DNA of 23,630 nucleotides from a virus. Below, piece by piece: positions 2,386 through 20,651 of this stretch; within the stretch, counting starts at the first letter, position 1; the number at the start of each line of letters is the position of its first letter. The notes below the pieces were generated by a model that saw only the letters and a list, made by a program, of their open reading frames with translations, did no database searches and was not told the DNA's origin. Position numbers and translations under genes: made by a program. Location: positions 1 to 23,630 of the IMG/VR virus record IMGVR_UViG_3300035659_001804; one strand, 5' to 3'.

Positions 2386-2398
2386 CGGTGTACCGTCA
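2383..2398. repeat. Inverted repeat over nrdJ stop and next promoter box
   Basis: TGACGGT and ACCGTCA form perfect 7-base arms around a GT centre. The repeat contains the TGA stop of the reductase gene and the TGTACCGT box in front of the next gene. It has no T-tract, so it is not a normal intrinsic terminator. It could be an operator-like site or coincidence. Confidence 0.5.
2389..2396 (+). promoter_or_regulatory. TGTACCGT -10-type box, leaderless start
   Basis: TANNNT hexamer TACCGT preceded by TG, with five bases between it and the ATG at 2402. There is no strong Shine-Dalgarno sequence. Transcription is inferred to begin at or beside the ATG. It belongs to a series of nine such boxes in the window. 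Confidence 0.6.
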
Positions 2399-2401
2399 GG
2401 G

Positions 2402-2728
2402 ATGACGGAGCACGACTGGAAGTTCGAGGAGCGCGGCACCGACCCCAGGAGCAGCTCCGGTAAGCCCGGGGAGTGGCACCGCTGCTCCGGGTGCCGGAAG
2501 CGCGTCTTCTTCCCGGACGGGTGGTCCGACTTCCAGAAGCGCCTCACCGTGGCCATGGCATGGATGGACGACGTCAGCGAGTTCAGCAAGGAGGAGCTAG
2601 CCGACAGGACCATCCCCGCCGGCGCCCCCGGGACGGGGCACGGCTTCGACAAGGGCTACCACGGGGTTCTGGCCGACGACTGCGACAAGGCCAGGGACCT
2701 CGAGGCCGAGCTCGTCATGGCGAGCTGA
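2402..2728 (+). CDS. Small Cys-containing phage protein of unknown function
   Basis: A 108-residue protein I do not recognise. The N-terminus reads MTEHDW, followed about 20 residues later by EWHRCSGCRKR. The His-x-Cys-x2-Cys could form half of a metal site, with a further Cys near the C-terminus (DDCDKA). The HDW...W-x-C-x2-C layout recurs in the minus-strand protein at 19861-20133, so the two may be distant relatives, but they are otherwise dissimilar. The ATG at 2402 is chosen because a TGTACCGT box ends five bases before it. No signal peptide or membrane segment is visible. It starts 16 bases after the reductase stop. Confidence 0.75.
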   Translation: MTEHDWKFEERGTDPRSSSGKPGEWHRCSGCRKRVFFPDGWSDFQKRLTVAMAWMDDVSEFSKEELADRTIPAGAPGTGHGFDKGYHGVLADDCDKARDLEAELVMAS

Positions 2729-2731
2729 CCC

Positions 2732-2739
2732 CGTACTGT
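2732..2739 (+). promoter_or_regulatory. CGTACTGT -10-type box, leaderless start
   Basis: Hexamer TACTGT ends six bases before the ATG at 2746. It directly follows the TGA of the preceding gene, with no Shine-Dalgarno between. Confidence 0.55.
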
Positions 2740-2745
2740 CCGGCC

Positions 2746-2985
2746 ATGGACTACGACAACGCCCGGGATAGGAACCTCTATGGGTACGACGCCGGGAACA
2801 TCATCGACGGCGAGGTTGTGCTGGACGGGGCCACCGGCGAGTATGTGGTCGTGGACGACGACGGGAAGGCCTTCTCCACGCAGGAGCTCCTCAAGTCCCT
2901 GGCCGGCAAGAAGGTGCGCCTCACGTGTATCTCGTTCGACGCGATCGAGGCCATCGAGAAGATGGTCGTGAAGACCGAGGGCTAG
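2746..2985 (+). CDS. Small hypothetical protein (79 aa)
   Basis: A 79-residue acidic protein starting MDYDNARDRN. It has alternating short strands (DGEVVLDGATGEYVVVDDDG), then LLKSLAGKKVRLTCISFDA and an amphipathic C-terminal helix (IEAIEKMVVK). I do not recognise a family; the pattern suggests a small alpha/beta fold. The start is fixed by a box ending six bases upstream and by the short gap to the previous gene. Its TAG stop shares bases with the TAG stop of the ligase gene on the other strand, through the palindrome CTAG at 2982-2985, so the two genes converge with no intergenic space. Confidence 0.75.
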   Translation: MDYDNARDRNLYGYDAGNIIDGEVVLDGATGEYVVVDDDGKAFSTQELLKSLAGKKVRLTCISFDAIEAIEKMVVKTEG

Positions 2986-4091
2986 GCAGCGTCCAGGTTC
3001 TTCTCGATGTACGGGATGACGTCGTTCCTCCTCGAGACCAGGACCCTGCACCCTCTGGTGAGGGCGAGCTCTCGGAACAGGGAGATGTTGTGCAGGGATA
3101 CGCTCGTGACGGTCACCCCGCCGATGTCCACGGGCTCGATGGAAGCCACCGGGGTGATGCGGCCCGAAGGTCCGACCTGCCACCTCACGTCAACGACCCT
3201 GGACTCGCCCATCGCGGCGTCGAACTTCCACGCAATCTGCCCGCGCGGCCGCATGTTTAGATCCCCCATCTCCTCGAGGACCTTGAGGTTGTTGACCGTG
3301 ACCACCATCCCGTCTATCTCGTACGGGACGGCGTCCCTCGACGCCGTGGTGCTGGCGAAGACCTTCTTCACGTCCCCGGCGTCCCCGCACGCTGTCCCCT
3401 CCGGGACCCTGAAGCCGTGGTTGGACAGCCATTTCATCGCGAAGAACAACGTCTTCGGCAGGTCCTCCGGGACGCTCATCCAGTACGCCAGGAACTCGAG
3501 GTCCCTGCAGGCCTCCCCGCCGCCCTTCTTCTCCCGGACCTTGGCCGCGGCCGTGTTCCTCGGGTTCGCATACTCCGCCGCGTACTTCTCGGCGAAGACG
3601 GACTTCAACATGACGATCTCCCCGCGGACGGTCAGGTCGACCGGGACGGATAGCCTCTTCGGGACCGACGGTACCTTCGACACGTTCGCCGTGACGTCCT
3701 CCCCTACCTTCCCGTCCCCTCGCGTCACGCACCTCGTAAGCTTCCCGGCCTTGTAGACGAGCTCCATCGACGACCCGTCGATCTTGTGCGTGATGTACAG
3801 AGTCTCGGCCCCCGCTCCGGCGGCCCTGGCCGACCACTCGTCGAACTCGGCCTCCGTGTTCGCCTTGGAGAGCGACCCCATCGGGATCTCGTGCCGGACC
3901 TTCTCCCAGACGGAGAACTGTGGCGCCGGCGCCCCGACGGCCACCACCTCGTCGTCGTCGGGGGCGAGCTTGGAGAGCTCGTCCTTCAGGGCGTCATACT
4001 CTTGGTCCGAGATCGCCGGCGCTAGGTTATAGTACCCCTCTCGGGCTGCCCTGAGCCTCTCACGCAGCTCTAAGATCCTCTCTACGCTCAT
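2982..4091 (-). CDS. ligA: NAD+-dependent DNA ligase, catalytic (N-terminal) subunit of a split LigA
   Basis: Seals nicks using NAD+. Numbering from the ATG at 4091 (369 aa): residues 1-40 are the NMN-binding domain Ia (GYYNLAPAISDQEYDAL). The adenylation domain carries the nucleophile K103 in KIDGSS, TRGDG (123-127), VRGE (155-158), NPRN (176-179), YEIDG (257-261) and IAWKF with K289. The OB fold follows (VGPSGRITPVASIEPVDIGG, then VSLHN). The protein stops after NDVIPYIEK, where bacterial LigA continues into Zn finger, HhH and BRCT. Those parts are encoded by the separate gene at 4720-5538 on the other strand. An upstream in-frame TTG at 4118 exists, but a CGTACGTT box ends five bases before the ATG at 4091, and the resulting N-terminus fits the family length. 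It converges on the preceding + gene with overlapping stops. Confidence 0.95.
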   Translation of the reverse strand: MSVERILELRERLRAAREGYYNLAPAISDQEYDALKDELSKLAPDDDEVVAVGAPAPQFSVWEKVRHEIPMGSLSKANTEAEFDEWSARAAGAGAETLYITHKIDGSSMELVYKAGKLTRCVTRGDGKVGEDVTANVSKVPSVPKRLSVPVDLTVRGEIVMLKSVFAEKYAAEYANPRNTAAAKVREKKGGGEACRDLEFLAYWMSVPEDLPKTLFFAMKWLSNHGFRVPEGTACGDAGDVKKVFASTTASRDAVPYEIDGMVVTVNNLKVLEEMGDLNMRPRGQIAWKFDAAMGESRVVDVRWQVGPSGRITPVASIEPVDIGGVTVTSVSLHNISLFRELALTRGCRVLVSRRNDVIPYIEKNLDAA

Positions 4092-4093
4092 CC

Positions 4094-4101
4094 CGTAACG
4101 T
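4094..4101 (+). promoter_or_regulatory. Possible divergent -10 box for the 4168 gene
   Basis: CGTAACGT on the + strand contains TAACGT and almost coincides with the minus-strand box of the ligase gene. If used, it would give a leader of about 60 bases before the Shine-Dalgarno-led gene at 4168. Weak evidence. Confidence 0.3.
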
Positions 4102-4104
4102 ACG
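4097..4104 (-). promoter_or_regulatory. CGTACGTT -10-type box for the ligase catalytic subunit
   Basis: Read on the minus strand, TACGTT ends five bases before the ATG at 4091, the same geometry as the + strand boxes. It decides the start of the ligase gene against the upstream TTG. Confidence 0.6.
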
Positions 4105-4167
4105 CTTGAGCTCTTCAATCCCTCATAGGCCCTTTGTCACCGGCCCGGTAGAGGTCCAGGAGCCATC

Positions 4168-4683
4168 ATGTCTAGCAATCCCCTCTCGTCAGACGTAGTT
4201 CCCTCCTCCGGAAGGAGGACGAGGTTCTCGCGCGTCGCCGCCGAGGTCCAGCAGTTCATGGCCTCGAGGGTCTCCGCGTCCGACAAGGACGCGGAATGGC
4301 AGAGGGTCCACTCCTACATCGCCGACGTCCTGAAGGATGCGCACGTCCTGTACGCCAAGCTCGCCAGGCTCGAGGGTGACTTCGCCGGCGAGGAGTCCTC
4401 GAACCTCGAGCGTATCTCCGAGGCCGTCCTGACCATCGGTGAGGAGCTCTCTGCCTTCTCGAAGGCCTTCTACGAGGGCAAGTACGACATGCAGGACAGG
4501 ACGTTCACCTACGGAGATGAGGGCGGCGGGGGAGGACAGGGAGAAGAGATGCTCCCCTCCACCCCCGAGTTCCCCGGGCCCGCGGGCGAAGAAGAGGCCG
4601 GAGAGCTCGAAGAGGGTGCCGGCGAGGAAGAGGAAGAGGCAGGCGAGGAAGAGGAAGAGGTCGGGGAGAAGGAAGAGGAGTAA
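4168..4683 (+). CDS. Acidic-tailed hypothetical phage protein
   Basis: A 171-residue protein in two parts. Residues ~15-110 look helical (RFSRVAAEVQQFMASRV, SYIADVLKDAHVLYAKLARL, RISEAVLTIGEELSAFSKAF), followed by a GGGGG linker. The last ~45 residues are almost entirely Glu/Gly/Ala, with tandem GEEEEEA-type heptads encoded by 21-base repeats. Such tails can mimic nucleic acid or contact basic proteins, but no function can be assigned. The start has a good AGGAG five bases before the ATG, unlike the box-led genes. It sits between the two halves of the split ligase, which could be meaningful or accidental. Confidence 0.75.
   Translation: MSSNPLSSDVVPSSGRRTRFSRVAAEVQQFMASRVSASDKDAEWQRVHSYIADVLKDAHVLYAKLARLEGDFAGEESSNLERISEAVLTIGEELSAFSKAFYEGKYDMQDRTFTYGDEGGGGGQGEEMLPSTPEFPGPAGEEEAGELEEGAGEEEEEAGEEEEEVGEKEEE
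4621..4680 (+). repeat. 21-base tandem repeat encoding Glu-rich tail
   Basis: Units begin at 4621, 4642 and 4663. The first two differ only in the last codon (GCA versus GTC) and the third is degenerate and shorter. They encode GEEEEEA, GEEEEEV and GEKEEE and form part of a long homopurine-rich stretch on the + strand. Confidence 0.8.
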
Positions 4684-4699
4684 CCGAAAGTCTTCGTCC

Positions 4700-4719
4700 G
4701 GTCCGTGTAAACTCGGACC
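4700..4719 (+). repeat. Perfect inverted repeat framing a TGTAAACT box
   Basis: Six-base arms GGTCCG (4700-4705) and CGGACC (4714-4719) exactly flank the eight-base promoter box at 4706-4713. The right arm ends on the base before the ATG at 4720. It could be an operator or an RNA hairpin with the box as its loop. Confidence 0.6.
4706..4713 (+). promoter_or_regulatory. TGTAAACT -10-type box, leaderless start
   Basis: TAAACT ends six bases before the ATG at 4720. There is no Shine-Dalgarno sequence between, so the ligase C-terminal subunit is inferred to have its own leaderless transcript. Confidence 0.65.
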
Positions 4720-5538
4720 ATGGAAGGCCTTCAGGAGCTCTTTCCCGTCCCCGACTGCTGCCCCGTCTGCGGAGGCCCCGCCTCCGAGGAGGGAGACTTT
4801 CTATACTGCCGCAGCCGGTCGTGCCCCGTCCAGCTCTCCGGCTCCGTCCGTGTCTGGATTAAGAGGCTCGGCCTTCTTCACTGGGGTGACGCCCTCGTGG
4901 ACCGGCTTACCGATCCTGACGACCCTAGGGTCGCCTCCGTAGCCGACCTCTACAGGCTCTCCGTGGAGGACATAGCCGCGTGTTCTTCTGGGACGAAGTT
5001 CGCCCAGAAATGCCACGACGTTCTCCATGCCAGCAAGTCAGTGACCCTCGAGCTCCTGATAGCGTCCCTCAACATCCCGAACCTCGCCGTCGCGACCGCC
5101 ACCGACATCGTCCAGGCCGGTTTCGACACAGTCGATAAGGTCCTTTCCATGACGAACGACGACCTTCTGAAGGTCCCGAACGTCGGGGAAGTGACCGCAC
5201 GCCAGGTCCTTGAGGGCCTCGAGTCACGCAGGCAGTCGATCCTGGACCTGGCCGCTGTCCTTGACGTCAAAGGGCCGGCCCTCGGGCCGATGTCCGGAAA
5301 GTCCTTCTGTATCACCGGGTCGACCTCAAGGCCGAGGAAGGCCATCGAGAAGATGATAATGGACTCCGGCGGAGTTTCGAAGGGGTCCGTCGGAGCCGGC
5401 ACCAGCTTCCTCGTTACGAACGATCCGGACACCGGCTCTTCGAAGATGAAGAGCGCCAAGAAGCACGGTGTCGATGTAATATCCGAGGCGGACCTCTACC
5501 GTATGATGGACCTTGGCGCTCCGAGGAGCGACCCCTAA
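4720..5538 (+). CDS. ligB: NAD+-dependent DNA ligase, Zn-finger/HhH/BRCT (C-terminal) subunit of a split LigA
   Basis: A 272-residue protein matching the C-terminal third of bacterial LigA. A four-cysteine Zn finger lies at the N-terminus (C14, C17, C30, C35, with CPVQL after the last pair). A helix-hairpin-helix region follows (~70-175; NLAVATATDIVQAGF, LLKVPNVGEVTARQVLEGL). A BRCT domain occupies ~191-264 (GKSFCITGSTSRPRKAIEKM, GGVSKGSVGAGTSFLVTND, DVISEADLYRMM). It has no adenylation domain, so it should work with the product of 2982-4091, clamping DNA around the nick. The symbol follows the subunit A/B usage I recall for phage T5; it is unrelated to E. coli LigB. It has its own box-led start, and the RecD2-like gene follows 21 bases downstream. 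Confidence 0.92.
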   Translation: MEGLQELFPVPDCCPVCGGPASEEGDFLYCRSRSCPVQLSGSVRVWIKRLGLLHWGDALVDRLTDPDDPRVASVADLYRLSVEDIAACSSGTKFAQKCHDVLHASKSVTLELLIASLNIPNLAVATATDIVQAGFDTVDKVLSMTNDDLLKVPNVGEVTARQVLEGLESRRQSILDLAAVLDVKGPALGPMSGKSFCITGSTSRPRKAIEKMIMDSGGVSKGSVGAGTSFLVTNDPDTGSSKMKSAKKHGVDVISEADLYRMMDLGAPRSDP

Positions 5539-5559
5539 TCAACTAGGCCCCTGCGGACT

Positions 5560-7848
5560 ATGGACGAAATTACCGCTAAAATTTCCGGGATCGTTTTCTC
5601 TAACCGGAGCACGGGCTTCTATGTGCTGCGTGCCGTGCAGGACGGCTCTTCTGGCAGTCTGACCGTGCGCGGGAGCTTCCCTGGTGTGGCCGTGAACATC
5701 GGCCTGAAGGCGAAGTTCGTCGGGAAGTTCGAGGAGCACCCGACCTACGGCCGGCAGCTGGCGGCCGCCAGCTGCGAGATCCTTCCTGAGAAGGGCAGGA
5801 ACGGCATCATCGCCTACCTTCAGGCCAATGTTCCGTCCATCGGACCCATCACCGCCTCCCGCCTCTATGAGGCCCTCGGGGACCAGCTCGTCGAGGTCCT
5901 GGACAAGGAGCCGGAGAAGATACGGGAGCTCAGCTTCCTTCAGGAGCGCCAGGCTGACGCCATCATCAACGAGTGGGCCCAGGCGTCCGAGAACCGGACC
6001 ACCGCGATATTCCTGACCGACCTGGGCCTGAGTTCCTTCCAGGTGAAGAGCGTCATCACGAAGCTCGGTGTGAAGGAGGCCAGGGACGCCATCCGGGCCG
6101 ATCCTTACTGCCTTCACAGGTGCGAAGGCGTCGGCTTCCCTACCGCCGACTCCGCCTCCAGGAAGCTCGGGATAGGGGTGGACGATCCGAGGCGCGTAAG
6201 GGCTATGGTCGAGTTCGCCATGTCCGAGCTCTCCGCTTCGGAGGGCCATATGTACTGCACCTCCCGCCAGATTCTGGACTACGTCTCGAAGCGGATGTTC
6301 AGGGTTCACTCTCTCGATCCGTTCACCCACGGCGAGTACATGTCGGACTCGCACTTCTTCACTGCACTTTCTGAGCTTCAGAAGTCCGACGCCGTAGTCT
6401 CCGACGGGACGCACATATACCTTCATCGCAACTGGTGGAACGAGTCGCAGTCGGCTGACTGCCTTTCCAAGTTCGTCTCCCAGGAGCCCAGGGAGTTCGG
6501 CGACCTTGAGGCCGTCCTCGAGGAGTTCGAGAAGAAGCACGGTTTGGCCCTGTCCGACGAACAGCGTCAGTCATTCTTCATGATGGGGAAGTCCAGGGTA
6601 TGCGTCGTGTCGGGCTTCCCCGGGACCGGGAAGACGCTCCTCATATCGGCCTTCGTCCATCTGTTCGAGAAGTTCAACCTGCACTACGTGCTGATGTCCC
6701 CGACCGGCATCGCCTCAAAGCGTCTTTCGCAGGTGACCGGGCGCCCTGCTTCCACGATCCACAGATCCCTCGGATATGGCCGTGACGGCTCTTGGACCAA
6801 CAACGCTGGCAACAAGTTCTTCTGCGATGCGGTCATCGTGGACGAGATGTCGATGGTGGACGGCTCTACCTTCTTCCATCTTGTCTCGTCCCTGCCTCCG
6901 ACGACCATCGTCATCATGGTTGGGGACTCCGCGCAGCTCCCGTCGGTCGGCGCCGGGTATGTTCTGAACAACCTGATGAGGTGCCCCGACGTCCCCCATG
7001 TGGCCCTCACCCGCATCTACCGGCAGGAGAAGACCTCGGACATCGTCTCCGTGGCTCACTCCATCCTTCGCGGGGACGCCGTCGACACCCGCTTCAACAA
7101 GGACTCCGAGTTCATCTTTCTCTCCTACCCGAAGGATCAGGTCGTCGAGGAGATCTCCAAGATGGCCTCGATGCTCAAGTCCAAGGAGAAGATCTTCCAG
7201 GTCATCGCCCCCATGTACGACGGCGACCTTGGCGTGAACAACCTGAACAGGACTCTCAGGGACGTCCTGAACCCGGACTATTCGTCCGGGAAGTCCGGGA
7301 AGCTGAAGAGCGGGAGCGTCGACCTCTACGAGGGCGACCGGGTCATGGTAATCCGGAACGACTATGACCGCATGATCTTCAACGGGGAGGTCGGGAAGAT
7401 TCAGCGGATCTCGGTGAAGCAGGACGAGGTCGAGGTGAAGATCTTCGACTGGTTCGACAACGAGTCCCCGGTCCCGAGGTATGTGGACAAGGTTTTCACC
7501 TTCAAGGTCGAGGAGGCTCGGAACGTCCTCAAGGTCGCCTACGCCTGCACCGCCCATAAGGTTCAGGGTCAGGAGTTCGACTATGTCCTTCTTCCGATGA
7601 CCATGCAGTACGGCATCATGCTCTACCGGAACCTCATATACACGGCCCTCACGCGCGCCAAGAAGAAGGTGTTCGTCTTCGGAGACCCGCGGGCGTTTTC
7701 GTTCGCAATCATGAACGACCGTGAGACCGTCCGGAACTCCCGCCTGAAGGAGCTCGTCCACGAGTTCGTCCATCCGGCCGACTCCGGGGTCCTCGCTTCC
7801 CCGGACGTATCTGATCTGCCCGACGAGGTGACTGAGGATGTGGCATGA
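5560..7848 (+). CDS. recD2: RecD2-like superfamily 1B DNA helicase
   Basis: ATP-driven 5'-3' DNA helicase, 762 aa, close to the usual RecD2 length. Residues 1-80 match the RecD2 N-terminal OB-like region (GIVFSNRSTGFYVLRAVQDG, VGKFEEHPTYGRQL). Helix-hairpin-helix repeats follow (VPSIGPITASRLYEALGDQL). The motor has Walker A GFPGTGKT (352-359), Walker B/DEAD-like DEMSMVD (428-434), GDSAQLPSVGAG (motif III), TAHKVQGQE (664-672, motif V) and YTALTRAKK with R699 (motif VI). The ATG at 5560 is used; I see neither a clear Shine-Dalgarno nor a box there, so it may be co-transcribed with the ligase subunit. A standalone RecD2 without RecBC suggests a role in replication or repair. Confidence 0.95.
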   Translation: MDEITAKISGIVFSNRSTGFYVLRAVQDGSSGSLTVRGSFPGVAVNIGLKAKFVGKFEEHPTYGRQLAAASCEILPEKGRNGIIAYLQANVPSIGPITASRLYEALGDQLVEVLDKEPEKIRELSFLQERQADAIINEWAQASENRTTAIFLTDLGLSSFQVKSVITKLGVKEARDAIRADPYCLHRCEGVGFPTADSASRKLGIGVDDPRRVRAMVEFAMSELSASEGHMYCTSRQILDYVSKRMFRVHSLDPFTHGEYMSDSHFFTALSELQKSDAVVSDGTHIYLHRNWWNESQSADCLSKFVSQEPREFGDLEAVLEEFEKKHGLALSDEQRQSFFMMGKSRVCVVSGFPGTGKTLLISAFVHLFEKFNLHYVLMSPTGIASKRLSQVTGRPASTIHRSLGYGRDGSWTNNAGNKFFCDAVIVDEMSMVDGSTFFHLVSSLPPTTIVIMVGDSAQLPSVGAGYVLNNLMRCPDVPHVALTRIYRQEKTSDIVSVAHSILRGDAVDTRFNKDSEFIFLSYPKDQVVEEISKMASMLKSKEKIFQVIAPMYDGDLGVNNLNRTLRDVLNPDYSSGKSGKLKSGSVDLYEGDRVMVIRNDYDRMIFNGEVGKIQRISVKQDEVEVKIFDWFDNESPVPRYVDKVFTFKVEEARNVLKVAYACTAHKVQGQEFDYVLLPMTMQYGIMLYRNLIYTALTRAKKKVFVFGDPRAFSFAIMNDRETVRNSRLKELVHEFVHPADSGVLASPDVSDLPDEVTEDVA

Positions 7849-7856
7849 GGCTCGAG

Positions 7857-7864
7857 CGTAAGCT
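7857..7864 (+). promoter_or_regulatory. CGTAAGCT -10-type box, leaderless start
   Basis: TAAGCT ends six bases before the ATG at 7871. It lies in the 22-base gap after the helicase gene, with no Shine-Dalgarno. Confidence 0.6.
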
Positions 7865-7870
7865 CTCCCC

Positions 7871-8317
7871 ATGAGTCGAAAGTTCCGCATGACTGTCGAG
7901 GTGGAGGCGCCCGACGACGTCACGGACGCGCAGATGATGATGCGCGTGAAAGAGCGCGTTGGCCATTCCTCTACCCGCCGCAAAATCTTGGTGAGGAAGG
8001 TGACGGTCGAGGACTCGTCGCCCGTCGCCGGCGTCCAGGCGGCCTTCATTTACGACAGCGGTGGCCATTCCCCCTGCCATGCGGTCGTCAAGAAGAAGAA
8101 CGGCCCCTGGAGCGAGAATCGCTTCGGATTCTGCGGCGTGGAGCCCGTCATCGGGCCCGTCGGCAGCATCGACAGTCCTGACGGCGGCCTCTGCCACACG
8201 TGCGCAAAGTTCGTGTCCAAGGGAGACGATGGGAACTGGTACGTCAGGAAGGACGTTCCCATCCCGGGCCCGAAGGTCCGTGCCAGCCTCGACTGCGGAG
8301 GCTGCTTCGACGACTGA
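7871..8317 (+). CDS. Hypothetical Cys-rich protein (148 aa)
   Basis: Unrecognised protein. The N-terminal ~50 residues form a basic segment with KFRMTVEVEAPDDVTDAQMMMRVKERV. The C-terminal part contains spaced Cys/His pairs: SPCH, GFCG, LCHTCAKF and LDCGGCFDD. The two Cys-x2-Cys pairs (CHTC and CGGC) about 35-40 residues apart could bind zinc. The phrase DGGLCHTCAKFVSKGDDGNWYV resembles the cysteine-plus-aromatic layout of small treble-clef or ribbon modules, but I cannot assign a family. The start is set by the box ending six bases upstream. It lies between the helicase and the SIMPL gene. Confidence 0.75.
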   Translation: MSRKFRMTVEVEAPDDVTDAQMMMRVKERVGHSSTRRKILVRKVTVEDSSPVAGVQAAFIYDSGGHSPCHAVVKKKNGPWSENRFGFCGVEPVIGPVGSIDSPDGGLCHTCAKFVSKGDDGNWYVRKDVPIPGPKVRASLDCGGCFDD

Positions 8318-8323
8318 GGCCCG

Positions 8324-8341
8324 GCCGGTGTACCCTCCGGC
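8324..8341 (+). repeat. Inverted repeat framing a TGTACCCT box
   Basis: Five-base arms GCCGG (8324-8328) and CCGGC (8337-8341) exactly flank the box at 8329-8336 and end just before the ATG at 8342. Same arrangement as at 4700-4719, with different arm sequence. Confidence 0.5.
8329..8336 (+). promoter_or_regulatory. TGTACCCT -10-type box, leaderless start
   Basis: TACCCT ends five bases before the ATG at 8342. No Shine-Dalgarno. Confidence 0.6.
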
Positions 8342-9007
8342 ATGCGACACTTCCACGAACCGAGGACCATCGAAGTCAGGGCTGCCGGGATCGCGGACAC
8401 CGTGTTCCGCTCGACGTCCTTCAGGGCCAGTGTGAACACCAAGGGCGCCACCGGTCCGGAGGCCAAGGACAAGGCCAAGGAGCGCGTCGACCTCATATGG
8501 GGCGTCGTCCGCGATTTCTCCGAGCGCGCTGGCGTCGACAAGGACCATATCAGGACGACCTTCTCCGTCGACGCCGACCATCAGCACACCGGCTCCGAGT
8601 ACAAGTTCGTCGGATACAAGGCTATGTACACGATGTCCTTTACGGCCAAGAACGTCTCCGAGGCCACCGCGCTCCACGACGCGATCACGAGCATCGTCGG
8701 CGTCGAGAGCCCCACGCCCGTTTTCAACGTGGATGAGAGCATCGAGGTCCACCACAAGGCCTTCTCCGACGCCTTCGACAAGGCCAAGAAGATGTTCTCC
8801 AACCAGTGCGCCTCCGCCGGCCTGTCCGCCGACTCGTACGAGGTCGTCTCCTGGGATATCGACGAAGAGCGCCAGGTCAGCGGAAAGACTCTCTCGGCCT
8901 CGAACTCTCATCAGGCCCTGTCCGGCGTCAGCATGGAGCCGGGAAAGGCGTCCTTCGGCCTGACTGTCTCGTTCCAGTACGCGCTCAAGGGCGAGCCCGC
9001 GGTGTAA
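8342..9007 (+). CDS. SIMPL (DUF541) domain protein, cytoplasmic
   Basis: A 221-residue protein whose pattern fits the SIMPL/DUF541 family: an N-terminal strand (TIEVRAAGIADTVF), then RASVNTKGATGPEAKDKAKERVDLIWGVV, HIRTTFSVDA, the YKFVGYKAMYTMSFTAKNVSEATAL block and a C-terminal EVVSWDIDEE strand. Bacterial relatives are mostly exported or membrane-anchored and oligomeric; this one has no signal peptide or membrane helix, so it should be cytoplasmic. Its role in a phage is unknown. Its TAA stop lies inside the promoter box of the following nuclease gene. Family call is by motif reading, moderately sure. Confidence 0.75.
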   Translation: MRHFHEPRTIEVRAAGIADTVFRSTSFRASVNTKGATGPEAKDKAKERVDLIWGVVRDFSERAGVDKDHIRTTFSVDADHQHTGSEYKFVGYKAMYTMSFTAKNVSEATALHDAITSIVGVESPTPVFNVDESIEVHHKAFSDAFDKAKKMFSNQCASAGLSADSYEVVSWDIDEERQVSGKTLSASNSHQALSGVSMEPGKASFGLTVSFQYALKGEPAV

Positions 9008-9010
9008 AAT
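9003..9010 (+). promoter_or_regulatory. TGTAAAAT -10-type box overlapping a stop codon
   Basis: TAAAAT, the closest of the set to a textbook -10, ends six bases before the ATG at 9017. Its TAA is the stop codon of the SIMPL gene. Confidence 0.65.
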
Positions 9011-9016
9011 GCCCGC

Positions 9017-10009: not shown

Positions 10010-10017
10010 CCGACCTG

Positions 10018-10866: not shown

Positions 10867-10889
10867 TGTAAGCTGGCCCTGAGAGGAGG
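10867..10889 (+). promoter_or_regulatory. TGTAAGCT box with short leader and perfect AGGAGG
   Basis: TGTAAGCT (10867-10874) is the same box type, but here the ATG is 21 bases further on and a perfect AGGAGG (10884-10889) sits six bases before it. This is the leadered counterpart of the leaderless starts and probably heads the long overlapping run to 15728. Confidence 0.6.
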
Positions 10890-10895
10890 ACGACC

Positions 10896-11189: not shown

Positions 11190-11191
11190 TC

Positions 11192-13187: not shown

Positions 13188-13205
13188 CGCAGAACCAGGA
13201 TCCTC

Positions 13206-14407: not shown

Positions 14408-15204
14408 TGTTCGTAGAGCAGTTTCTTGACTGGGCGCACGCCGGTCTCCTGGAGAGCGAAGAAGCTCAGGCGTACCTCTCGGGGAGGGGCGTGTCCAAGG
14501 ACCAGTGGGCCCGGCATCGTCTCGGTTATGTGGCCGGGGACTTCGACGTCGACCCGCAGTCGCATCCCGGCCATTCCGACGACTGCTCTGACAAAGAGAA
14601 GAGGGCTTTCTGGTGTGACGCGTGCCGTTATAGGCAGTGGTCCTCCGTTTGGGAGGAGATTGAGGGCGTCGGCAGAGACCGTGTTGTGGGCCGAAAGATT
14701 CTCGGCTGCGTTGTGTTCCCCCTGACCTCGTACTCCGGATCTGTTGTCGGGTTCCAGGTCAGGTCCATAGCCGAGAAGTCCTACGATACCTTCGTCCTTC
14801 AGCGCCGCCCTGAGGGTTATTTCTTCGGATCGCAGATGAACTTCCGCGAGATATGGGCCTCCAAGGAGGTCGTCCTCGTGGAGGGACCTGGCGATCACCT
14901 GATCATGGAGCGCCTCGCTACGCCGAATGTTCTCGCCCTCACTACGTCCGGCCTGAGCAAGTCCCAGATGCAGTTTGTGCGCCGCTTCGCCCGTAGGGTC
15001 ATCATGTGTTTGGACATGGATGAGGCCGGGAGGAGGGGAGTGAAGTCGTTCTTGGAGAGGAACGGATCCGGGTTCGATGTCGTCGACGTAAGATATCCTC
15101 GCATCGGGCCTAAGGACAAAGATCCTGGCGACTACTGGAAGAGGGTCGGGGACGAGGCCTTCACCCGATACTTCAACAAGGCTCTCGAGCGGAGGAACGC
15201 ATGA
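14407..15204 (+). CDS. DnaG-type TOPRIM primase, short and lacking the N-terminal zinc domain
   Basis: Likely makes RNA primers for replication. At 265 aa it is less than half the length of bacterial DnaG. An N-terminal DnaG-like block (AYLSGRGVSKDQWARHRLGY) is followed by an insertion with H53, H56, C60, C70 and C73 that might bind metal in place of the missing CHC2 zinc finger. A core stretch (FPLTSYSGSVVGFQVRSIAE, then SYDTFVLQ) leads to the TOPRIM domain: VEGPGD (E159, D163) and CLDMDEAG (D203, D205). No helicase-binding domain is present. It overlaps neighbours on both sides (TGATG and ATGA). A TOPRIM protein of another function is less likely given this core. Confidence 0.82.
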   Translation: MFVEQFLDWAHAGLLESEEAQAYLSGRGVSKDQWARHRLGYVAGDFDVDPQSHPGHSDDCSDKEKRAFWCDACRYRQWSSVWEEIEGVGRDRVVGRKILGCVVFPLTSYSGSVVGFQVRSIAEKSYDTFVLQRRPEGYFFGSQMNFREIWASKEVVLVEGPGDHLIMERLATPNVLALTTSGLSKSQMQFVRRFARRVIMCLDMDEAGRRGVKSFLERNGSGFDVVDVRYPRIGPKDKDPGDYWKRVGDEAFTRYFNKALERRNA

Positions 15205-15728
15205 CGACTGTTCACATTAGCAATGGCAAGAAGATCAACGACGCGGTCGCGGACAAGAAGCAGCGGGCGGAGCCCGACCCGCTCATCATCGCGGACTTCG
15301 ACACTGCCAAGACCATCGCCGAGAAGCTCATTCCGAAGCACCATTCCGAGATCGCCTCCGCCAATATCGTCTATCTCTGTCGCAACAAGTCTCAGAAGCA
15401 GGGCGGGATTCCCGTCCCCGGGACTGTGAAGAAGGCTTCCCCTCTCGAGCGCCATCTTGGCGGTCACTACTTCGACGGGGAAGACGACGAGCCCGATTTC
15501 ATCATGACCGTCGCCCTGGACGTGTGGAACGAGCTCCAGCCCACCCAGCGGACCGCCCTCGTGGACCATCTTCTCACCAGGTGTACTGGGGAGGAAGACG
15601 AGAAGTCCGGTGAGATGAAGTACAGCATTCGTCCTCCGCAAGTCCAGGAGTTCGCCGAAGTCGCTGAGCGCAATGGTAGGTGGAACGACGGGCTCGCCGA
15701 GCTCGGGGACTGCCTGAAAGGCAAGTAG
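15201..15728 (+). CDS. Phage metallopeptidase-fold protein with degenerate active site
   Basis: A 175-residue protein that follows the phage putative-metallopeptidase pattern: HHSEIASANIVYLCRNKSQK, DDEPDFIMTVALDVWNELQP, then TQRTALVDHLLTRC and VQEFAEVAERNGRWNDGL. The catalytic HExxH expected after ALVD is HLLTR, keeping only the first His. The third zinc ligand in the usual HDVEEF is replaced by PQVQEF. It is therefore probably not a peptidase but a fold kept for another role. Good GGAGG five bases before the ATG, which overlaps the primase stop. Symbol left empty. Confidence 0.75.
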   Translation: MTTVHISNGKKINDAVADKKQRAEPDPLIIADFDTAKTIAEKLIPKHHSEIASANIVYLCRNKSQKQGGIPVPGTVKKASPLERHLGGHYFDGEDDEPDFIMTVALDVWNELQPTQRTALVDHLLTRCTGEEDEKSGEMKYSIRPPQVQEFAEVAERNGRWNDGLAELGDCLKGK

Positions 15729-15738
15729 ACCTCTCGGC

Positions 15739-15746
15739 TGTAACAT
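15739..15746 (+). promoter_or_regulatory. TGTAACAT -10-type box for the clamp loader
   Basis: TAACAT ends six bases before the ATG at 15753. This selects 15753 over the in-frame GTG at 15750. Confidence 0.6.
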
Positions 15747-15752
15747 CCTGTG

Positions 15753-17171
15753 ATGCCGAACTTCGATCTGAAGTACCGTCCGCGCCGTCTTTCCGACATA
15801 GTCGGTAACCAGGCGGTGGTGCGCTTGCTTCTGAAGCTCGCCTCCGGGGGGCGCCTTGCGGACCGCTCTATCATGTTCGGTGGTCCGAAGGGGTGCGGGA
15901 AGACGTCACTCGCCAGGATAGTCGCCAGAGCTGTGGTCTGTGACGACCTCAGGGACGGCGAGCCGTGCGGGGAATGCGCCTCATGCACGTCCGTGACGCA
16001 CGAGTCGTCTGACTCGTTCGAAGAGTTCGACGCCGCAACCCAGGGGACGGTCGACCACATGCGGTCGATAGTGGACGGTCTTGAATACGGGAATCTGAGC
16101 GGCAAGCCATTTGTTTTCGTTATGGACGAGGCCCACCGTCTCTCCAAGCAGGCCCAGGACGCCCTTCTGAAGTCCGTCGAAGACAGGCGTCTGGTCGTCA
16201 TTCTCTGTACTACGGAGCCAAGCAAGATCCAGGGTGCCATCAGGTCCAGGGTCACGGAGTTCCCTGTGGTTGCCCCGTCCGAGGCTGAGATCGTCGCGAG
16301 GATGGACTACGTGTGCCGGTTGGAGGGCGTCCAGTGCGATCCTGAGGCTCTTGGCTTCATCGCTCGCTCTCTCGAGATGTGTCCGAGGAACTGCCTCACC
16401 ACTCTCGAGCTCCTCGCGCCGTCGATTACCCTCGACGCCGTAAAGGCCCATTTCAGGTATGCGAGCCTCGAGACTCTGGCCTCGATTCTCTCTCGAATCG
16501 ACTCTGACCCGTCCCTGGCACTCGATGACCTCGATGCCCTGATGGGTTCAGAAGGTCCGGTATGGGTGCGTGACAATATAGTTCTGGCCATATCTAGCGC
16601 TTTGAGGACGAGCGTCGGAGCCCGGGCTACCTTCCCCTTCGGAAGCGCTTTCTATCAGTCTCGCGGCAGGAGATGGGCGGATCTGGCCAGAATTCTCGGA
16701 TCGATGGACAAGCCCATGGCTTCCTCCATTGAGGCTGCCCTGATTGCTGATCACCCGTCGGCGAATGTCTTTCCGTCCTTCGCCCCAACCCTGGCGGCAG
16801 CCCCGGCGGCAGCCCCGGCGGCAGCCCCGGCGGCAGCTTCCACCATCATTCCGGCTTCCACCATCATTCCGGCTTCCGTTGTCATCCCGGTTTCCACCAT
16901 AACCCCGATCACTCCCGCCGTCACCACTCCCGTCGCCAGGATCCCCTCCCCGCAGGTACACGCTCCCCCGCTCGAGGTCGACGGGATCAAGTTCACTAGA
17001 GAAGAGAGTCTTACGACGCTTGACTCAAGAATTGAGATGACGCCGCGAACACAGCCTCCTTCGTCTGCCCAGGGTCCGTCTGCAGAGGTAGAGTTGGACT
17101 CGTCGAGGATTCCGATCCCGGATAAGGAGTTTGCTCGTGGCTTTGTCCAAAGGTTCAAAAAAGCGCACTAA
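15753..17171 (+). CDS. dnaX: DnaX-type clamp loader ATPase (gamma/tau-like)
   Basis: AAA+ ATPase that opens and loads the sliding clamp. Numbering from the ATG at 15753 (472 aa): LKYRPRRLSDIVGN at the N-terminus, Walker A GPKGCGKT (44-51), a zinc module C63, C72, C75, C78, Walker B VFVMDEAH (D125, E126), and sensor/arginine-finger segment CTTEPSKIQGAIRSR. After the ~335-residue loader core comes an Ala/Pro/Ile-rich linker built from two DNA repeat types, then a short basic tail (EFARGFVQRFKKAH). This resembles the gamma/tau layout with a low-complexity linker in place of domains IV-V. The box-led ATG at 15753 is preferred to GTG 15750. The 3' end overlaps the NusG-like gene by 35 bases and carries an A6G run. 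Confidence 0.93.
   Translation: MPNFDLKYRPRRLSDIVGNQAVVRLLLKLASGGRLADRSIMFGGPKGCGKTSLARIVARAVVCDDLRDGEPCGECASCTSVTHESSDSFEEFDAATQGTVDHMRSIVDGLEYGNLSGKPFVFVMDEAHRLSKQAQDALLKSVEDRRLVVILCTTEPSKIQGAIRSRVTEFPVVAPSEAEIVARMDYVCRLEGVQCDPEALGFIARSLEMCPRNCLTTLELLAPSITLDAVKAHFRYASLETLASILSRIDSDPSLALDDLDALMGSEGPVWVRDNIVLAISSALRTSVGARATFPFGSAFYQSRGRRWADLARILGSMDKPMASSIEAALIADHPSANVFPSFAPTLAAAPAAAPAAAPAAASTIIPASTIIPASVVIPVSTITPITPAVTTPVARIPSPQVHAPPLEVDGIKFTREESLTTLDSRIEMTPRTQPPSSAQGPSAEVELDSSRIPIPDKEFARGFVQRFKKAH
16793..16837 (+). repeat. 12-base tandem repeat in dnaX linker
   Basis: Three full copies of GGCGGCAGCCCC plus a 9-base partial copy, encoding repeated Ala-Ala-Ala-Pro. In-frame, so copy-number change would only alter linker length. 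Confidence 0.85.
16837..16907 (+). repeat. 18-base tandem repeat in dnaX linker
   Basis: Two identical copies of CTTCCACCATCATTCCGG (16837-16854, 16855-16872) followed by two diverged copies, encoding STIIPA, STIIPA, SVVIPV, STITPI. It directly abuts the 12-base array. Confidence 0.85.
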
Positions 17172-17736
17172 GGCCGCCAAGGGCGCTCCCCCTCCGGTCC
17201 TCGTTCTTTCCACAAAGTGGGTCGTAGTCCAGCTTACGCAGCTGGGTGAGAGGGAGAAGAATATCAGCCTGATCGTCCGGGCCGTCCATCAGATACTGAA
17301 GCGGCGCGAGCTCGAGGTCTTCGTCCCGGCCATATCCCAGAAGGGCTTGGACGACTCGCTCACCACGTGGTACTCGGACGGATACGTGTTCGTCAGGTTC
17401 TCCGACGGGATTGTCTACAACTCTCTTCAGGAGACAACCTACTTCTCCACAGTTCTTTCAAAGTCCGCGTTCGTGGACGGCGCCAGGAAGACCATATACT
17501 CTCTCCTCGACGACAAAGACCTTGATCCAATGCGTGTGGGCATGAAGGTCATGAAGATCGGCGGCTTCTCCGAGGACAACCGGGTGAAGGTCGTGAAGGG
17601 GAGCTACAAGAACCTGACCGGGAAGATCTCGTGCGTGTACGATGGCGGCGAGGTCGTCCAGGTCTGCCTTAGCCTCAGGTCGAAGCCCATGTTCATGGAC
17701 TTTCCCGCGTCGTATCTCGAGAAGGTGGACCTGTGA
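17137..17736 (+). CDS. NusG-like protein with KOW domain
   Basis: Probable transcription elongation/antitermination factor of the NusG/RfaH family. A basic N-terminal tail (KGSKKRTKAAKG) precedes an NGN-like domain (KWVVVQLTQLGEREKNISLI, LEVFVPAIS, GYVFVRFSDG) and a C-terminal KOW motif (RVKVVKGSYKNLTGKI, from residue ~149). GTG 17137 is chosen because AAGGAG lies seven bases upstream; an in-frame TTG at 17131 would be too close. It starts inside the last 35 bases of dnaX and its GTGA overlaps the next gene. It may bind host RNA polymerase to favour phage transcripts. Family call is by pattern; the NGN part is divergent. Confidence 0.75.
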   Translation: MALSKGSKKRTKAAKGAPPPVLVLSTKWVVVQLTQLGEREKNISLIVRAVHQILKRRELEVFVPAISQKGLDDSLTTWYSDGYVFVRFSDGIVYNSLQETTYFSTVLSKSAFVDGARKTIYSLLDDKDLDPMRVGMKVMKIGGFSEDNRVKVVKGSYKNLTGKISCVYDGGEVVQVCLSLRSKPMFMDFPASYLEKVDL

Positions 17737-17933
17737 AGATGACCGCCGAGCAGATCTTGAAGCTCACTCCAGAACAGCGCAATGAGCTTGCGGCCAGCAT
17801 GGTCGCCCCCATGCGGTGCGGCGGGTGCACCTATGACGAGCAGGGGCGCAGGCTCTATATGCACGGCGGGAAGTGGATGCTCGAGGACGGACCCGAGTAT
17901 CAAGAGCTCCTTAGAAGGCACGGCTGGACATGA
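17733..17933 (+). CDS. Small hypothetical protein (66 aa)
   Basis: Starts at GTG 17733 overlapping the preceding TGA, with AGGTGG four bases upstream; an ATG two codons later (17739) is the alternative. The helix TAEQILKLTPEQRNELAASMV is followed by RCGGCTYDEQGRRLYMHGGKW, in which one Cys-x2-Cys sits before a short hairpin, and a final helix EYQELLRRHGWT. No function known. It is wedged between the NusG-like gene and the 5' nuclease gene, overlapping both (its own TGA overlaps the ATG at 17930). Confidence 0.7.
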   Translation: MKMTAEQILKLTPEQRNELAASMVAPMRCGGCTYDEQGRRLYMHGGKWMLEDGPEYQELLRRHGWT

Positions 17934-18937
17934 GGTCCGTCGGAGGGTCGGAGATCCGCAGGAACGTCCTCGTGGACGGGAACAACCTTCTCCACAGGGC
18001 TTACTATGTCTTCGTGGAGAATAGGCTCAAGGAGGGGAAGCCGATCCTGTGCAGCCCGTCCGGATTTCCGACGGGGATAGCCTACGGGTTCCTTTCCATG
18101 CTCTCGTCCTGGCTCTACGACATCCAGTCCCCCACGTCCGTCTCGGTCTTCTTCGACGGGACCCCGGCGCGGCGGCTAGCCATGGACCCCGGGTATAAGG
18201 CCGGCAGGGACGCTCATGGAATCAAGATGTCCCCGTCCGACGACATGCCGCTCATGACCCTCAGGGACGGGAGGACCGTTCGCGGCGAGATGGACCTGCT
18301 CTCCCACATCATCCGCATGCTCGGGTTCGACGTCTACCACGATCCGCGGGAGGAGGCCGACGACCTGATAGCCAGCTTTGTCCACTCCAGGCCCGGGGAG
18401 GTCCACATCATCGTCTCCTCCGACAAGGATTTCTTCCAGCTCGTCGACGATCGCGTCGTCCTCTACAGGCCCGGCCACGACGGCTTCTTTGACGCTGAGC
18501 GCGTCGGTGACCACATGGAGAAGCTCTACAAGGTCCGCGTTCTCCCGTCCCAGATACGCATGTTCAAGAGCCTGACCGGCGACTCGTCCGATTCTATCCC
18601 GGGCGTCCCCCGGATCCGGAAGAAGCTTGCCGCAGCCCTTTGCTCCCACCCGGACGTCTCATCCTTGTACGCCTCCGGCCTCCCTGGTCTCTCGAAGGCC
18701 GAGCGGGAGGCCACTGTGTCCCTGAGGGACCGGGTTGCCTTGAACTTCGACCTCGTCGGCCTCGACTCGAGTCTGGACGTCGAGGCCTGCAGGAGGCCCG
18801 GCTCCGAGGACGTCTCTGCGGCCAAGGACCTGTGCCGGGAGGACCTCGGAATGAAGTCGATTGACTTCTCGGGCTTCAAAATCGGACCCCGCTCCGCCAC
18901 CCCCGTCCCGGTAGAAAGTTGGCTCCTCGACATCTGA
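17930..18937 (+). CDS. FEN-type 5'-3' exonuclease (PolA N-terminal/T5 D15-like)
   Basis: A 335-residue structure-specific 5' nuclease that removes RNA primers and flaps. The acidic metal-binding residues are in place: LVDGNN (D16), FFDG (D76), EEADDL (E142, D144, D145), SSDKD (D165, D167) and GDSSDSIPGVP (D218, D221), the last forming the start of the H3TH DNA-binding motif. The YKAGRDAH and RRLAM arch residues are also visible. It stands alone, without a polymerase domain, as in phages T5 and T4. ATG overlaps the previous TGA (ATGA). It ends 143 bases before the sigma-like gene. Confidence 0.94.
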   Translation: MRSVGGSEIRRNVLVDGNNLLHRAYYVFVENRLKEGKPILCSPSGFPTGIAYGFLSMLSSWLYDIQSPTSVSVFFDGTPARRLAMDPGYKAGRDAHGIKMSPSDDMPLMTLRDGRTVRGEMDLLSHIIRMLGFDVYHDPREEADDLIASFVHSRPGEVHIIVSSDKDFFQLVDDRVVLYRPGHDGFFDAERVGDHMEKLYKVRVLPSQIRMFKSLTGDSSDSIPGVPRIRKKLAAALCSHPDVSSLYASGLPGLSKAEREATVSLRDRVALNFDLVGLDSSLDVEACRRPGSEDVSAAKDLCREDLGMKSIDFSGFKIGPRSATPVPVESWLLDI

Positions 18938-18944
18938 CTGGTAG

Positions 18945-18952
18945 TGTTAACT
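18945..18952 (+). promoter_or_regulatory. TGTTAACT, possible promoter box of the sigma-like gene
   Basis: One mismatch from TGTANNNT. It would start transcription near 18959 and give a leader of about 122 bases before the gene at 19081, unlike the leaderless genes. Confidence 0.4.
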
Positions 18953-18958
18953 CGACGG

Positions 18959-19080
18959 ACCTCCGGCCATACTGAGTCCTCCGTAGAGACCGATACCGAA
19001 ACGGATACGCACCCGGCTCTGAGCCCATACGTATACGCATACGGAACACTTTCGCGCGGGAACGCGCTGGCCGGAGGCAG
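18959..19080 (+). promoter_or_regulatory. Structured 5' leader with sequestered Shine-Dalgarno
   Basis: Bases 18960-18969 (CCTCCGGCCA) are the exact reverse complement of 19068-19077 (TGGCCGGAGG), which contains the GGAGG ribosome site of the gene at 19081. A second stem TCCGTA (18980-18985) with TACGGA (19040-19045) nests inside. A GCGCG-GGAA-CGCGC hairpin with a GNRA loop (19054-19067) abuts the outer stem. If it folds so in RNA, the ribosome site would be hidden, suggesting switch-like control. The only gene-free stretch over 100 bases in the window. Confidence 0.55.
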
Positions 19081-19857
19081 ATGTCTATATCTCACATCCT
19101 CATTCAGGATCCGTCGTCACTTTCGTCCAGGTTCAGCAACGAGAATCGTCTCGGCTATGACCCGGATTCCGAACAGGACCTGGAGGACCTGATCGAGAAC
19201 CGTCTCGCTCCGGACGCCGAAGAGGAGCTGAACGCCGACGGCCAGTCCCTCGACTTCGGGTCCATCGAGCACTATCTGGATCGCATCCCGCCACGCGAGG
19301 CTGACCTCATACGCCTCTACCACCACGACAAAATGAAGCAGGAGCAGATAGCCAAGCTGTTCCGCATCACGCAGGCGGCCGTCTCGTACAGGCTGCACCG
19401 CGGCATCAAGCGCATCCAGTTTCTGAGGACAATCCCGGAGCTCGACCAGGAGCAGTTCGACCTGGAGCTCGGCCCGAAGTTCTCGGATCAAGACCGTGAG
19501 ATCCTGTGGAGGATGTATGAGACCACCTGTCAGTCGGAGATAGCCAAGCAGATGAACCTGACGCAGGGACGCGTCCGCCACAGGTTCTTCCGGGCGCTCC
19601 AGAAGGTGAAGGACCTCATCGCCGAGGAGGCGAAGGAGCTCCTGGTCCGAGCTCATATGCTCCGGAAGCAGGGCAGGGACTCCCAGGAGGTCGAGAGGGC
19701 GGAGAAGGACCTCGAGGATTCGATCGAGAATTCGAGGTACGGAAAGTACTACACCGTGTTCTTCGCCATCTCGGACAAGCACTTCAACATCCTTCACGAA
19801 GTCTCGCTCCCTCAGTTCCGGGACCGCGGGGACGCTCAGATACTCCCGATCGAGTGA
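19081..19857 (+). CDS. Protein with two sigma-70 region 4-like HTH motifs
   Basis: A 258-residue protein with two similar DNA-binding units. The first runs PPREADLIRLYHHDKMKQEQ IAKLFRITQAAVSYRLHRG (about 70-112), the second FSDQDREILWRMYETTCQSE IAKQMNLTQGRVRHRFFRA (about 134-176). Each has the sigma region 4 layout of a conserved acidic helix followed by an HTH. There is no region 2, so it cannot recognise -10 boxes or open promoters as a full sigma factor. It may contact -35 DNA, act as an activator, or interfere with host sigma. A C-terminal acidic coiled region follows. GGAGG lies four bases before the ATG, in a structured leader. It stops three bases before the convergent minus-strand gene. 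Confidence 0.82.
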   Translation: MSISHILIQDPSSLSSRFSNENRLGYDPDSEQDLEDLIENRLAPDAEEELNADGQSLDFGSIEHYLDRIPPREADLIRLYHHDKMKQEQIAKLFRITQAAVSYRLHRGIKRIQFLRTIPELDQEQFDLELGPKFSDQDREILWRMYETTCQSEIAKQMNLTQGRVRHRFFRALQKVKDLIAEEAKELLVRAHMLRKQGRDSQEVERAEKDLEDSIENSRYGKYYTVFFAISDKHFNILHEVSLPQFRDRGDAQILPIE

Positions 19858-19860
19858 CCT

Positions 19861-20133
19861 CTATGACTCCATGACCTGCCAGGTCACGTACTCGTCGCAC
19901 AGAAGGTTCTTCATTCCGGCGTAGACCTTTTTGTACACGGACGGCCTGCGGCTCGAACTCTCCGATGCGCCGCACCTCCTGCACCTCCAGGATCTCACGA
20001 GCCTGTCTTGGGCCACCTCGAACGGAAGTCCGTGGTCATACGGGTATATCTTCCCGGACGGCACGTCCTTCCATCCGTGCTCCCAGTCGTGGGCCTCTCT
20101 CCTGGGGCCGGCGGTCCTACTCCGGGGCAACAA
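19861..20133 (-). CDS. Small zinc-ribbon-like protein (about 90 aa)
   Basis: Hypothetical. A TTG at 20133 (or TTG 20130) overlaps the upstream minus-strand gene by about 17 bases; no ATG is available, and GTG near residue 24 is a shorter alternative. The sequence contains AHDWEHGWKDVPSGKIYPYD, then SWRCRRCGASESSSRRPSVY with a Cys-x2-Cys, and ends NLLCDEYVTWQVMES. The HDW...W-x-C-x2-C layout echoes the gene at 2402. The start is uncertain, but the conserved-looking N-terminal HDW supports a start upstream of it. Convergent with the sigma-like gene, three bases apart and without a terminator. Confidence 0.65.
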   Translation of the reverse strand: MLPRSRTAGPRREAHDWEHGWKDVPSGKIYPYDHGLPFEVAQDRLVRSWRCRRCGASESSSRRPSVYKKVYAGMKNLLCDEYVTWQVMES

Positions 20134-20638
20134 CGTCCTCGGACTCCAGCAGGACCGTCTCCTTGACCAGCCTGCATCCGATGACCTTCAGCGTCTCCCC
20201 GAAAATCTTCGTCGCCCCGGCGAACCTCCTGGCCCTGTCGGCCAGCATCGTGAGCTCCTTCGCCGTCGGCCTTCTGCTAAGGAAGATCGCCACCGAGTTG
20301 TAGGCCGGATGTTTTGGACATGACGACGCAAAATAGAGGGTGCCCCCCGCGCCGTTGCTCTCATATCCGGGCGTCGGGGCTAGGTCCATCGGGGCGCGCA
20401 TAATGCCGTCGTCCCCCGGGTCGCTGACCCGTTCCTCAACCAGGTTCTCGAAGGGGTCCTTGCCCTTGAAGTCCTTCATGTACATCTTCTTGTACGGGCC
20501 TCCGCGGTGGTCCCCGTACTCGTCGCACTGCCCGACTATGTAGCTGCTCATCTCCCGCTCGAAGTTTCCGGCGTACGAGTCCGTGTCCACCACGAACGAC
20601 CACTTCGGATCCCCGCCCTCCCAATCCCATAGCGCCAT
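20117..20638 (-). CDS. Hypothetical phage protein (173 aa)
   Basis: Begins MALWDWEGGDPKWSFVVDTD and continues SYAGNFEREMSSYIVGQCDE, a D-T-D-x-Y-A-G-N-F-E-R pattern that I believe recurs in hypothetical proteins of large phages, though I cannot name a family. The C-terminal half contains a strand-helix stretch (NSVAIFLSRRPTAKELTMLADRARRFAG) and ends in KVIGCRLVKETVLLESED. The acidic DTD could be a metal or nucleotide site. ATG 20638 has a box TGTACCCT ending five bases upstream on the minus strand. It reads toward the zinc-ribbon gene in a two-gene unit opposite to the rest of this region. Confidence 0.78.
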   Translation of the reverse strand: MALWDWEGGDPKWSFVVDTDSYAGNFEREMSSYIVGQCDEYGDHRGGPYKKMYMKDFKGKDPFENLVEERVSDPGDDGIMRAPMDLAPTPGYESNGAGGTLYFASSCPKHPAYNSVAIFLSRRPTAKELTMLADRARRFAGATKIFGETLKVIGCRLVKETVLLESEDVVAPE

Positions 20639-20643
20639 GGTCC

Positions 20644-20651
20644 AGGGTACA
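20644..20651 (-). promoter_or_regulatory. TGTACCCT -10-type box on the minus strand
   Basis: Read on the minus strand, TACCCT ends five bases before the ATG at 20638. A + strand TACACT (20648-20653) overlaps it and could serve the divergent gene at 20690. Confidence 0.6.

Follow-up and report, generated by a model that had tools for sequence, protein, structure and literature searches.

A start-adjacent GTANNNT box in an uncultured jumbo-phage family, probably a promoter element for leaderless transcripts

The stretch of DNA analysed here (the window) is the complete IMG/VR record IMGVR_UViG_3300035659_001804, which is 23,630 bases long and carries part of a replication/nucleotide module, and it raises the question of what a short box placed immediately before many of its genes is for. 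An initial annotation had described this box as TANNNT preceded by TG or CG, ending 5 or 6 nucleotides (nt) before nine ATGs, and had read it as an extended -10 promoter for transcripts beginning at the AUG. The SbcD protein of the window has 27 relatives in IMG/VR, 55–100% identical, whose loci range from 34 to 65% in guanine plus cytosine (GC) content and whose contigs reach 436 kb. The window is a fragment from an uncultured family of jumbo phages, across which GC content spans 34–66%; a near-identical 35-kb contig (L002/G001) was also found. As judged from sequence, the box, with GTANNNT as its core, is probably a promoter element giving leaderless transcripts, which we consider its best reading.

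The positions, strands, spacings and preceding TG or CG of the nine boxes were all verified (Table 1). The two strands of the window contain 46 GTANNNT and 618 ATGs; GTANNNT ends 5–6 nt upstream of exactly 9 of these ATGs, and all nine are gene starts, whereas at other spacings it is found before 0–2 ATGs. A box at this position should be rare by chance, as had been supposed, yet it is present at 9 of the 25 starts (binomial P = 8e-19; Fisher P = 6e-14). One further copy, lying farther from its ATG and separated from it by AGGAGG, was also as first described and possibly represents leadered use.

The survey was extended to six relatives, available as whole or large contigs, in which genes were called by a simple script blind to the upstream region. 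GTANNNT peaks at a spacing of 5–6 nt in every one of them, with 40 of 267 genes boxed in G003 (393 kb), 40 of 288 in G004 (274 kb), 37 of 329 in G015 (363 kb), 31 of 190 in G022 (240 kb), 33 of 273 in G023 (first 400 kb) and 34 of 326 in G027 (377 kb), i.e. 10–16% of genes or about one in eight, while other spacings account for 0–6 genes per relative. The enrichment thus extends beyond the window, as the initial annotation required. It was also seen in a test that made no use of the called genes, which gave 68 occurrences at spacing 5 and 58 at spacing 6 (126 against about 10 expected for the two positions), the control with the reversed string being flat.

Pooling the 1673 starts of the six relatives, GTAnnnT at 5–6 nt was by far the most enriched pattern (215 observed, 14.7 expected), whereas the ATA/CTA/TTA, GAA/GCA and GTC/GTG/GTT variants were at or below expectation, and HTANNNT gave no peak at this spacing. 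GGAnnnT was in excess (30 against 15), probably because of Shine-Dalgarno motifs. The final T is less strict (GTAnnnG, 32 against 10 expected; GTAnnnA, 23 against 8), the T before GTANNNT is a preference only, and most relatives also favour a G just before the last T. In AT-rich relatives (34–43% GC), 48 of 296 genes are boxed and G precedes 48 of the 56 TANNNT at 5–6 nt, with no TAA-like middle. The essential core is therefore GTANNNT with an invariant G, and substitution of its G, T or A abolishes the enrichment. Thus the conserved element at a fixed position that had been described holds, with GTANNNT rather than TGTANNNT or TANNNT as its core. A classical extended -10 (TGnTANNNT), which like the family boxes needs no -35, was rejected, since G is found at the canonical position in only 16–32% and is not enriched there, but adjoins TA in 89–100%; of the extended -10 proposal, the promoter-like, -10-only character remains.

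What kind of gene carries the box? No -35 is shared, no position upstream of the box being conserved in any of the six relatives, and Shine-Dalgarno motifs precede 0–9% of boxed genes versus 28–42% of the others, both in agreement with the initial annotation. The boxed start codons are ATG or GTG, never TTG. Boxed genes seldom overlap the gene upstream (2% versus 20% for the others, P = 2e-9) and are more often divergent (odds ratio 2.4, P = 1e-7), and therefore behave as heads of transcription units. Gene by gene, the box is kept at orthologues of 41–80% identity despite wide divergence in sequence and GC content (Table 1); orthologues of other window genes are without it, namely those of gene 4168 (0 of 17 boxed), the RecD-like gene (1 of 23), gene 11425 (0 of 26) and the gene for a protein with two sigma region-4 domains (0 of 19). 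In G003 the boxed genes are spread over the genome and include those for DNA polymerase A, an SNF2-type helicase, an AAA ATPase, DnaJ and ligase, as well as an endolysin, a tail-fibre-like protein and a PurZ-like enzyme.

Which polymerase and which factor might read the box was approached through the proteins of the family. No RNA polymerase beta subunit (PF00562) was detected in 13 large relatives, with matches in 14 of 14 control genomes (single-subunit phage RNA polymerases were not searched for), so the host core enzyme is likely the polymerase. The window itself encodes, from an unboxed gene, a protein with two sigma-70 region-4-like domains (Table 1); it has strong profile matches throughout the family, with Sigma70_r4 matches in 26 of 27 records, and is a candidate transcription factor of the box system. 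Another family protein of about 500 amino acids (aa) (L059:11400–12902 and homologues, alignment A3) matches Pfam sigma region 4 (2.9e-7) and has a cysteine-rich, putatively zinc-binding insert and a DnaA-domain-IV-like C-terminus. It was found in all 7 large or medium relatives searched and in 18 viral contigs, and is absent from the named phage collection. The model of a protein of about 220 aa resembles extracytoplasmic function (ECF) sigma factors, with Escherichia coli sigma-E ranking first (Foldseek probability 0.91, E 0.05), and some relatives have full sigma70 proteins. The structural models are of moderate confidence (predicted local distance difference test scores of 65 and 72), and the sigma-like assignments based on them are tentative; searching PDB sequences with the two sigma-like alignments yielded no significant match, nor did hhalign between the 500-aa and ECF-like families reach significance.

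The fixed position of the boxes, the missing -35 and Shine-Dalgarno, the behaviour of boxed genes as transcription-unit heads and the conservation at orthologues all argue for GTANNNT as a -10-only promoter element of these phages. The host core enzyme, as the most likely RNA polymerase, would melt the DNA at TA...T and start transcription 5–7 nt past the box, at the A of the ATG or next to it, so that some 10–16% of the phage genes, for replication and repair but also for endolysin and tail fibre, would be expressed from leaderless mRNAs. Less surely, recognition of the G against TA may be set or assisted by phage sigma-like proteins and not by the host housekeeping sigma alone. The start of the transcript at the boxed AUG is inferred from the geometry of the box and by analogy with TANNNT leaderless promoters that have experimental support (PMC12340547, PMC3160421). 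Several points weigh against this interpretation. GTANNNT might also be the ordinary -10 of the host. None of the phage sigmas is tied to the box, the ECF-like protein being undetected in G004 and G022, both of which are boxed, although these contigs may be incomplete. Finally, a search for leadered use found no general enrichment of GTANNNT in sense orientation at larger distances from starts; the box is thus evident only next to starts, which would not be predicted of a promoter serving leadered genes too.

That the box might act in the mRNA, as a translation-initiation signal, is suggested by its location at the Shine-Dalgarno position, by the near mutual exclusion of the two and by the same absence of enrichment away from starts; but GUANNNU is not complementary to the anti-Shine-Dalgarno CCUCC, and a ribosome signal would not need the few upstream overlaps and the divergent bias of the boxed genes, which makes this explanation improbable. 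Chance or an artefact of gene-start selection can practically be dismissed: start calls made by eye can be biased, but the binomial probability given above covers all ATGs of the window, the pattern was repeated in independent genomes with automatic starts, and it is conserved at orthologues. A far more serious alternative, which we rate somewhat short of an even chance, retains the promoter and makes it the host's own: the box would be a vegetative leaderless -10 of the TANNNT class, as in Actinobacteria and Deinococcus-Thermus, read by host sigma-A, and the phage sigma-like proteins would serve other promoters. In the TA-led leaderless genes of these bacteria a TANNNT -10 adjoins the open reading frame (PMC3160421, PMC12340547), and the -10 motif alone is a sufficient promoter in Deinococcus radiodurans (PMC12340547). 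The family resembles them in that TANNNT keeps a constant, short spacing to the start, boxed genes lack Shine-Dalgarno sites and a -35 is mostly missing, and its geometry matches the known TANNNT about 12 bp upstream (PMC3160421). Leaderless middle and late mRNAs are also known in the Thermus phage phiYS40 (PMC3594737), and the Thermus phage P23-45 has extended -10 middle and late promoters, its gp39 displacing sigma4 (PMC7403470); promoters without -35 and leaderless messages (phiYS40) would be shared with Thermus phages, but the jumbo-phage family is unrelated to them and has GTANNNT instead of TGnTANNNT. Unlike the bacterial genes, the family combines an invariant G before TA with a 5–6 nt spacing and keeps its core from 34 to 66% GC, the G and the unconstrained NNN persisting at 34–43% GC. 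Among leaderless-type control boxes (spacing 5–7) from Deinococcus deserti, Thermus, Streptomyces and Rhodococcus plasmids, G precedes TA in 8 of 21, against about 94% in the phages at 5–6 nt; this control set is small and includes no known host, but the difference suggests that the demand for the G comes from the phage side. The actinobacterial or Deinococcus host that the initial annotation had brought in was not established, as the actinobacterial marker WhiB was found in none of 17 relatives and a search of GTDB genomes with SbcD returned no relatives. NrdJ was rejected as a host clue: its matches (15 loci, 33–46% identity) are scattered over Myxococcota/Deltaproteobacteria, Ignavibacteria, Omnitrophota, Planctomycetota and archaeal metagenome-assembled genomes, with no other window gene nearby.

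Reading of the box by a phage sigma-like factor, in the way that gp55 reads the late promoters of T4, is close to an even call; the double region-4 protein might then sit on the beta flap and mimic sigma4 as gp33 does. In favour, the family encodes the double region-4, 500-aa and ECF-like proteins and sometimes a full sigma70, and the core of the box is independent of genome GC. On the other hand, the resemblance to region 2 in the 500-aa protein is weak (Pfam detects no region 2 and Foldseek gives E >0.1, in addition to the hhalign result above), the ECF-like protein was not detected in every boxed genome, and replication and lysis genes alike are boxed, so that the boxed genes do not form an evident temporal class. 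The conserved sequence of T4 late promoters is different and AT-rich, and a T4-type late promoter was rejected because its consensus octamer is not matched by the GTANNNT core. What the two systems have in common is a -10-like element without -35, read in T4 by host RNA polymerase with phage sigma-like and sigma4-mimic proteins (gp55 and gp33 forming a split sigma, together with gp45; PMC2988020), where the family encodes the ECF-like and double region-4 proteins; leaderless placement is no feature of the T4 late system as described in that work. A bolder version, in which a novel type of phage sigma redirects host RNA polymerase to GTANNNT and renders about one-eighth of the genome leaderless, independently of host promoter rules and GC content, is offered tentatively and as rather doubtful; candidates for such a sigma would include the 500-aa protein, or the ECF-like protein acting with the double region-4 protein.

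Whichever factor is involved, a leaderless GTANNNT promoter would differ from those of the phiKZ/AR9 jumbo phages, which have multisubunit RNA polymerases and short start-proximal promoter motifs, such as the late AACA-6N-TA/G of AR9 (PMC5312081). A short start-proximal motif is common to both, but a promoter of the phiKZ/AR9 type was rejected because no beta subunit was detected in the family and the motif is not that of AR9. A search of open-access papers for leaderless promoters in jumbo phages brought up the AR9 work alone, and the GTANNNT version, in which the G is fixed and the phages encode several sigma-like proteins, seems not to have been reported before. The box provides a genome-wide, sequence-testable promoter signature for uncultured very large phages, one that also fixes gene starts, and the analysis points to sigma-like proteins as possible readers. 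Should a phage factor indeed impose a leaderless regulon, jumbo phages lacking their own RNA polymerase would have a takeover strategy of a distinct kind, which would test promoter choice as a means of bypassing Shine-Dalgarno translation.

Table 1. Boxes and associated features in the window (spacing, nt between box and start codon)
Feature	Position	Strand	Sequence	Preceded by	Spacing	Start codon	Downstream gene or remarks
Box	2389..2396	+	TGTACCGT	TG	5	ATG 2402	Same box in L002
Box	2732..2739	+	CGTACTGT	CG	6	ATG 2746	11/18 orthologues boxed
Box	4097..4104	-	CGTACGTT	CG	5	ATG 4091	NAD-dependent DNA ligase gene 2982-4091, adenylation and OB domains (Pfam DNA_ligase_aden 3.5e-53); 14/19 orthologues boxed
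Box	4706..4713	+	TGTAAACT	TG	6	ATG 4720	HHH + BRCT gene 4720-5538 (Pfam BRCT 5.6e-13), apparent second part of a split LigA; 18/20 orthologues boxed
Box	7857..7864	+	CGTAAGCT	CG	6	ATG 7871	Gene in window and L002 only
Box	8329..8336	+	TGTACCCT	TG	5	ATG 8342	SIMPL/DUF541-domain gene
Box	9003..9010	+	TGTAAAAT	TG	6	ATG 9017	SbcD/Mre11-like metallophosphoesterase; 17/25 orthologues boxed; box contains TAA stop of upstream gene
Box	15739..15746	+	TGTAACAT	TG	6	ATG 15753	Clamp-loader-like AAA+ gene (DNA_pol3_delta2); 8/25 orthologues boxed
Box	20644..20651	-	TGTACCCT	TG	5	ATG 20638	Gene 20117-20638
Box, possibly leadered	10867..10874	+	TGTAAGCT		21	ATG 10896	AGGAGG between box and ATG
Structured leader of double sigma region-4 gene	18955..19080	+	CCUCCGGCCA/UGGCCGGAGG (closing stem)				Closing stem covers Shine-Dalgarno
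Double sigma region-4 gene	19081..19857	+					258-aa protein, two sigma-70 region-4-like helix-turn-helix domains (Pfam Sigma70_r4 8.2e-17, two stretches); unboxed

The unboxed double region-4 gene is preceded by a structured leader, a candidate cis-regulatory RNA (fold -47.8 kcal/mol, z -2.3). Equivalent leaders are present in L004, L006, L007, L009, L026, L028 and L118; a direct stem search found that the arms in the relatives are different but complementary over 9–11 bp, and for 8 of 14 leaders no more than 2 of 200 shuffles were as good. Several leaders share AUACNNAUAC repeats. No Rfam family matches the leader, and RNAalifold on a MAFFT alignment of it gave no pairs, probably owing to misaligned arms.

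In the distant 485-kb phage LR745208 (L155, L181–L184), many starts have GTA(A) ending 8 nt upstream (18 cases, background about 3) and lacking the T, which makes it a related but shifted signal. This phage has a homologue of the double region-4 protein and no match to the 500-aa protein, and repeated AAAAGTT...CCGTACCGATA(A/G)GGG-like stretches are found upstream of other starts.

Besides the ligase, HHH + BRCT, SbcD-like nuclease, clamp-loader-like ATPase and double region-4 proteins, the products encoded in the window include an NrdJ-like ribonucleotide reductase, a RecD2-like helicase, a PD-(D/E)XK nuclease, a primase-like Toprim protein and a 5'-3' exonuclease. The NAD-dependent DNA ligase seems to be split between the two genes listed in Table 1, which lie on opposite strands, are both boxed and are both kept across relatives. 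A PurZ-like adenylosuccinate synthetase is encoded in G003 (295640–296851), with homologues in G004, G015, G021, G022 and G027; it has WGSSGKGK where PurA has WGDEGKGK, a sequence feature suggesting that these phages may have 2-aminoadenine (Z) replacing adenine, in which case the TA of the GTANNNT box would contain Z. One jumbo-phage contig (L045–L048, G003 17900–67500) carries about 44 tRNA genes and a transfer-messenger RNA gene, and two of these G003 tRNAs are predicted selenocysteine tRNAs.

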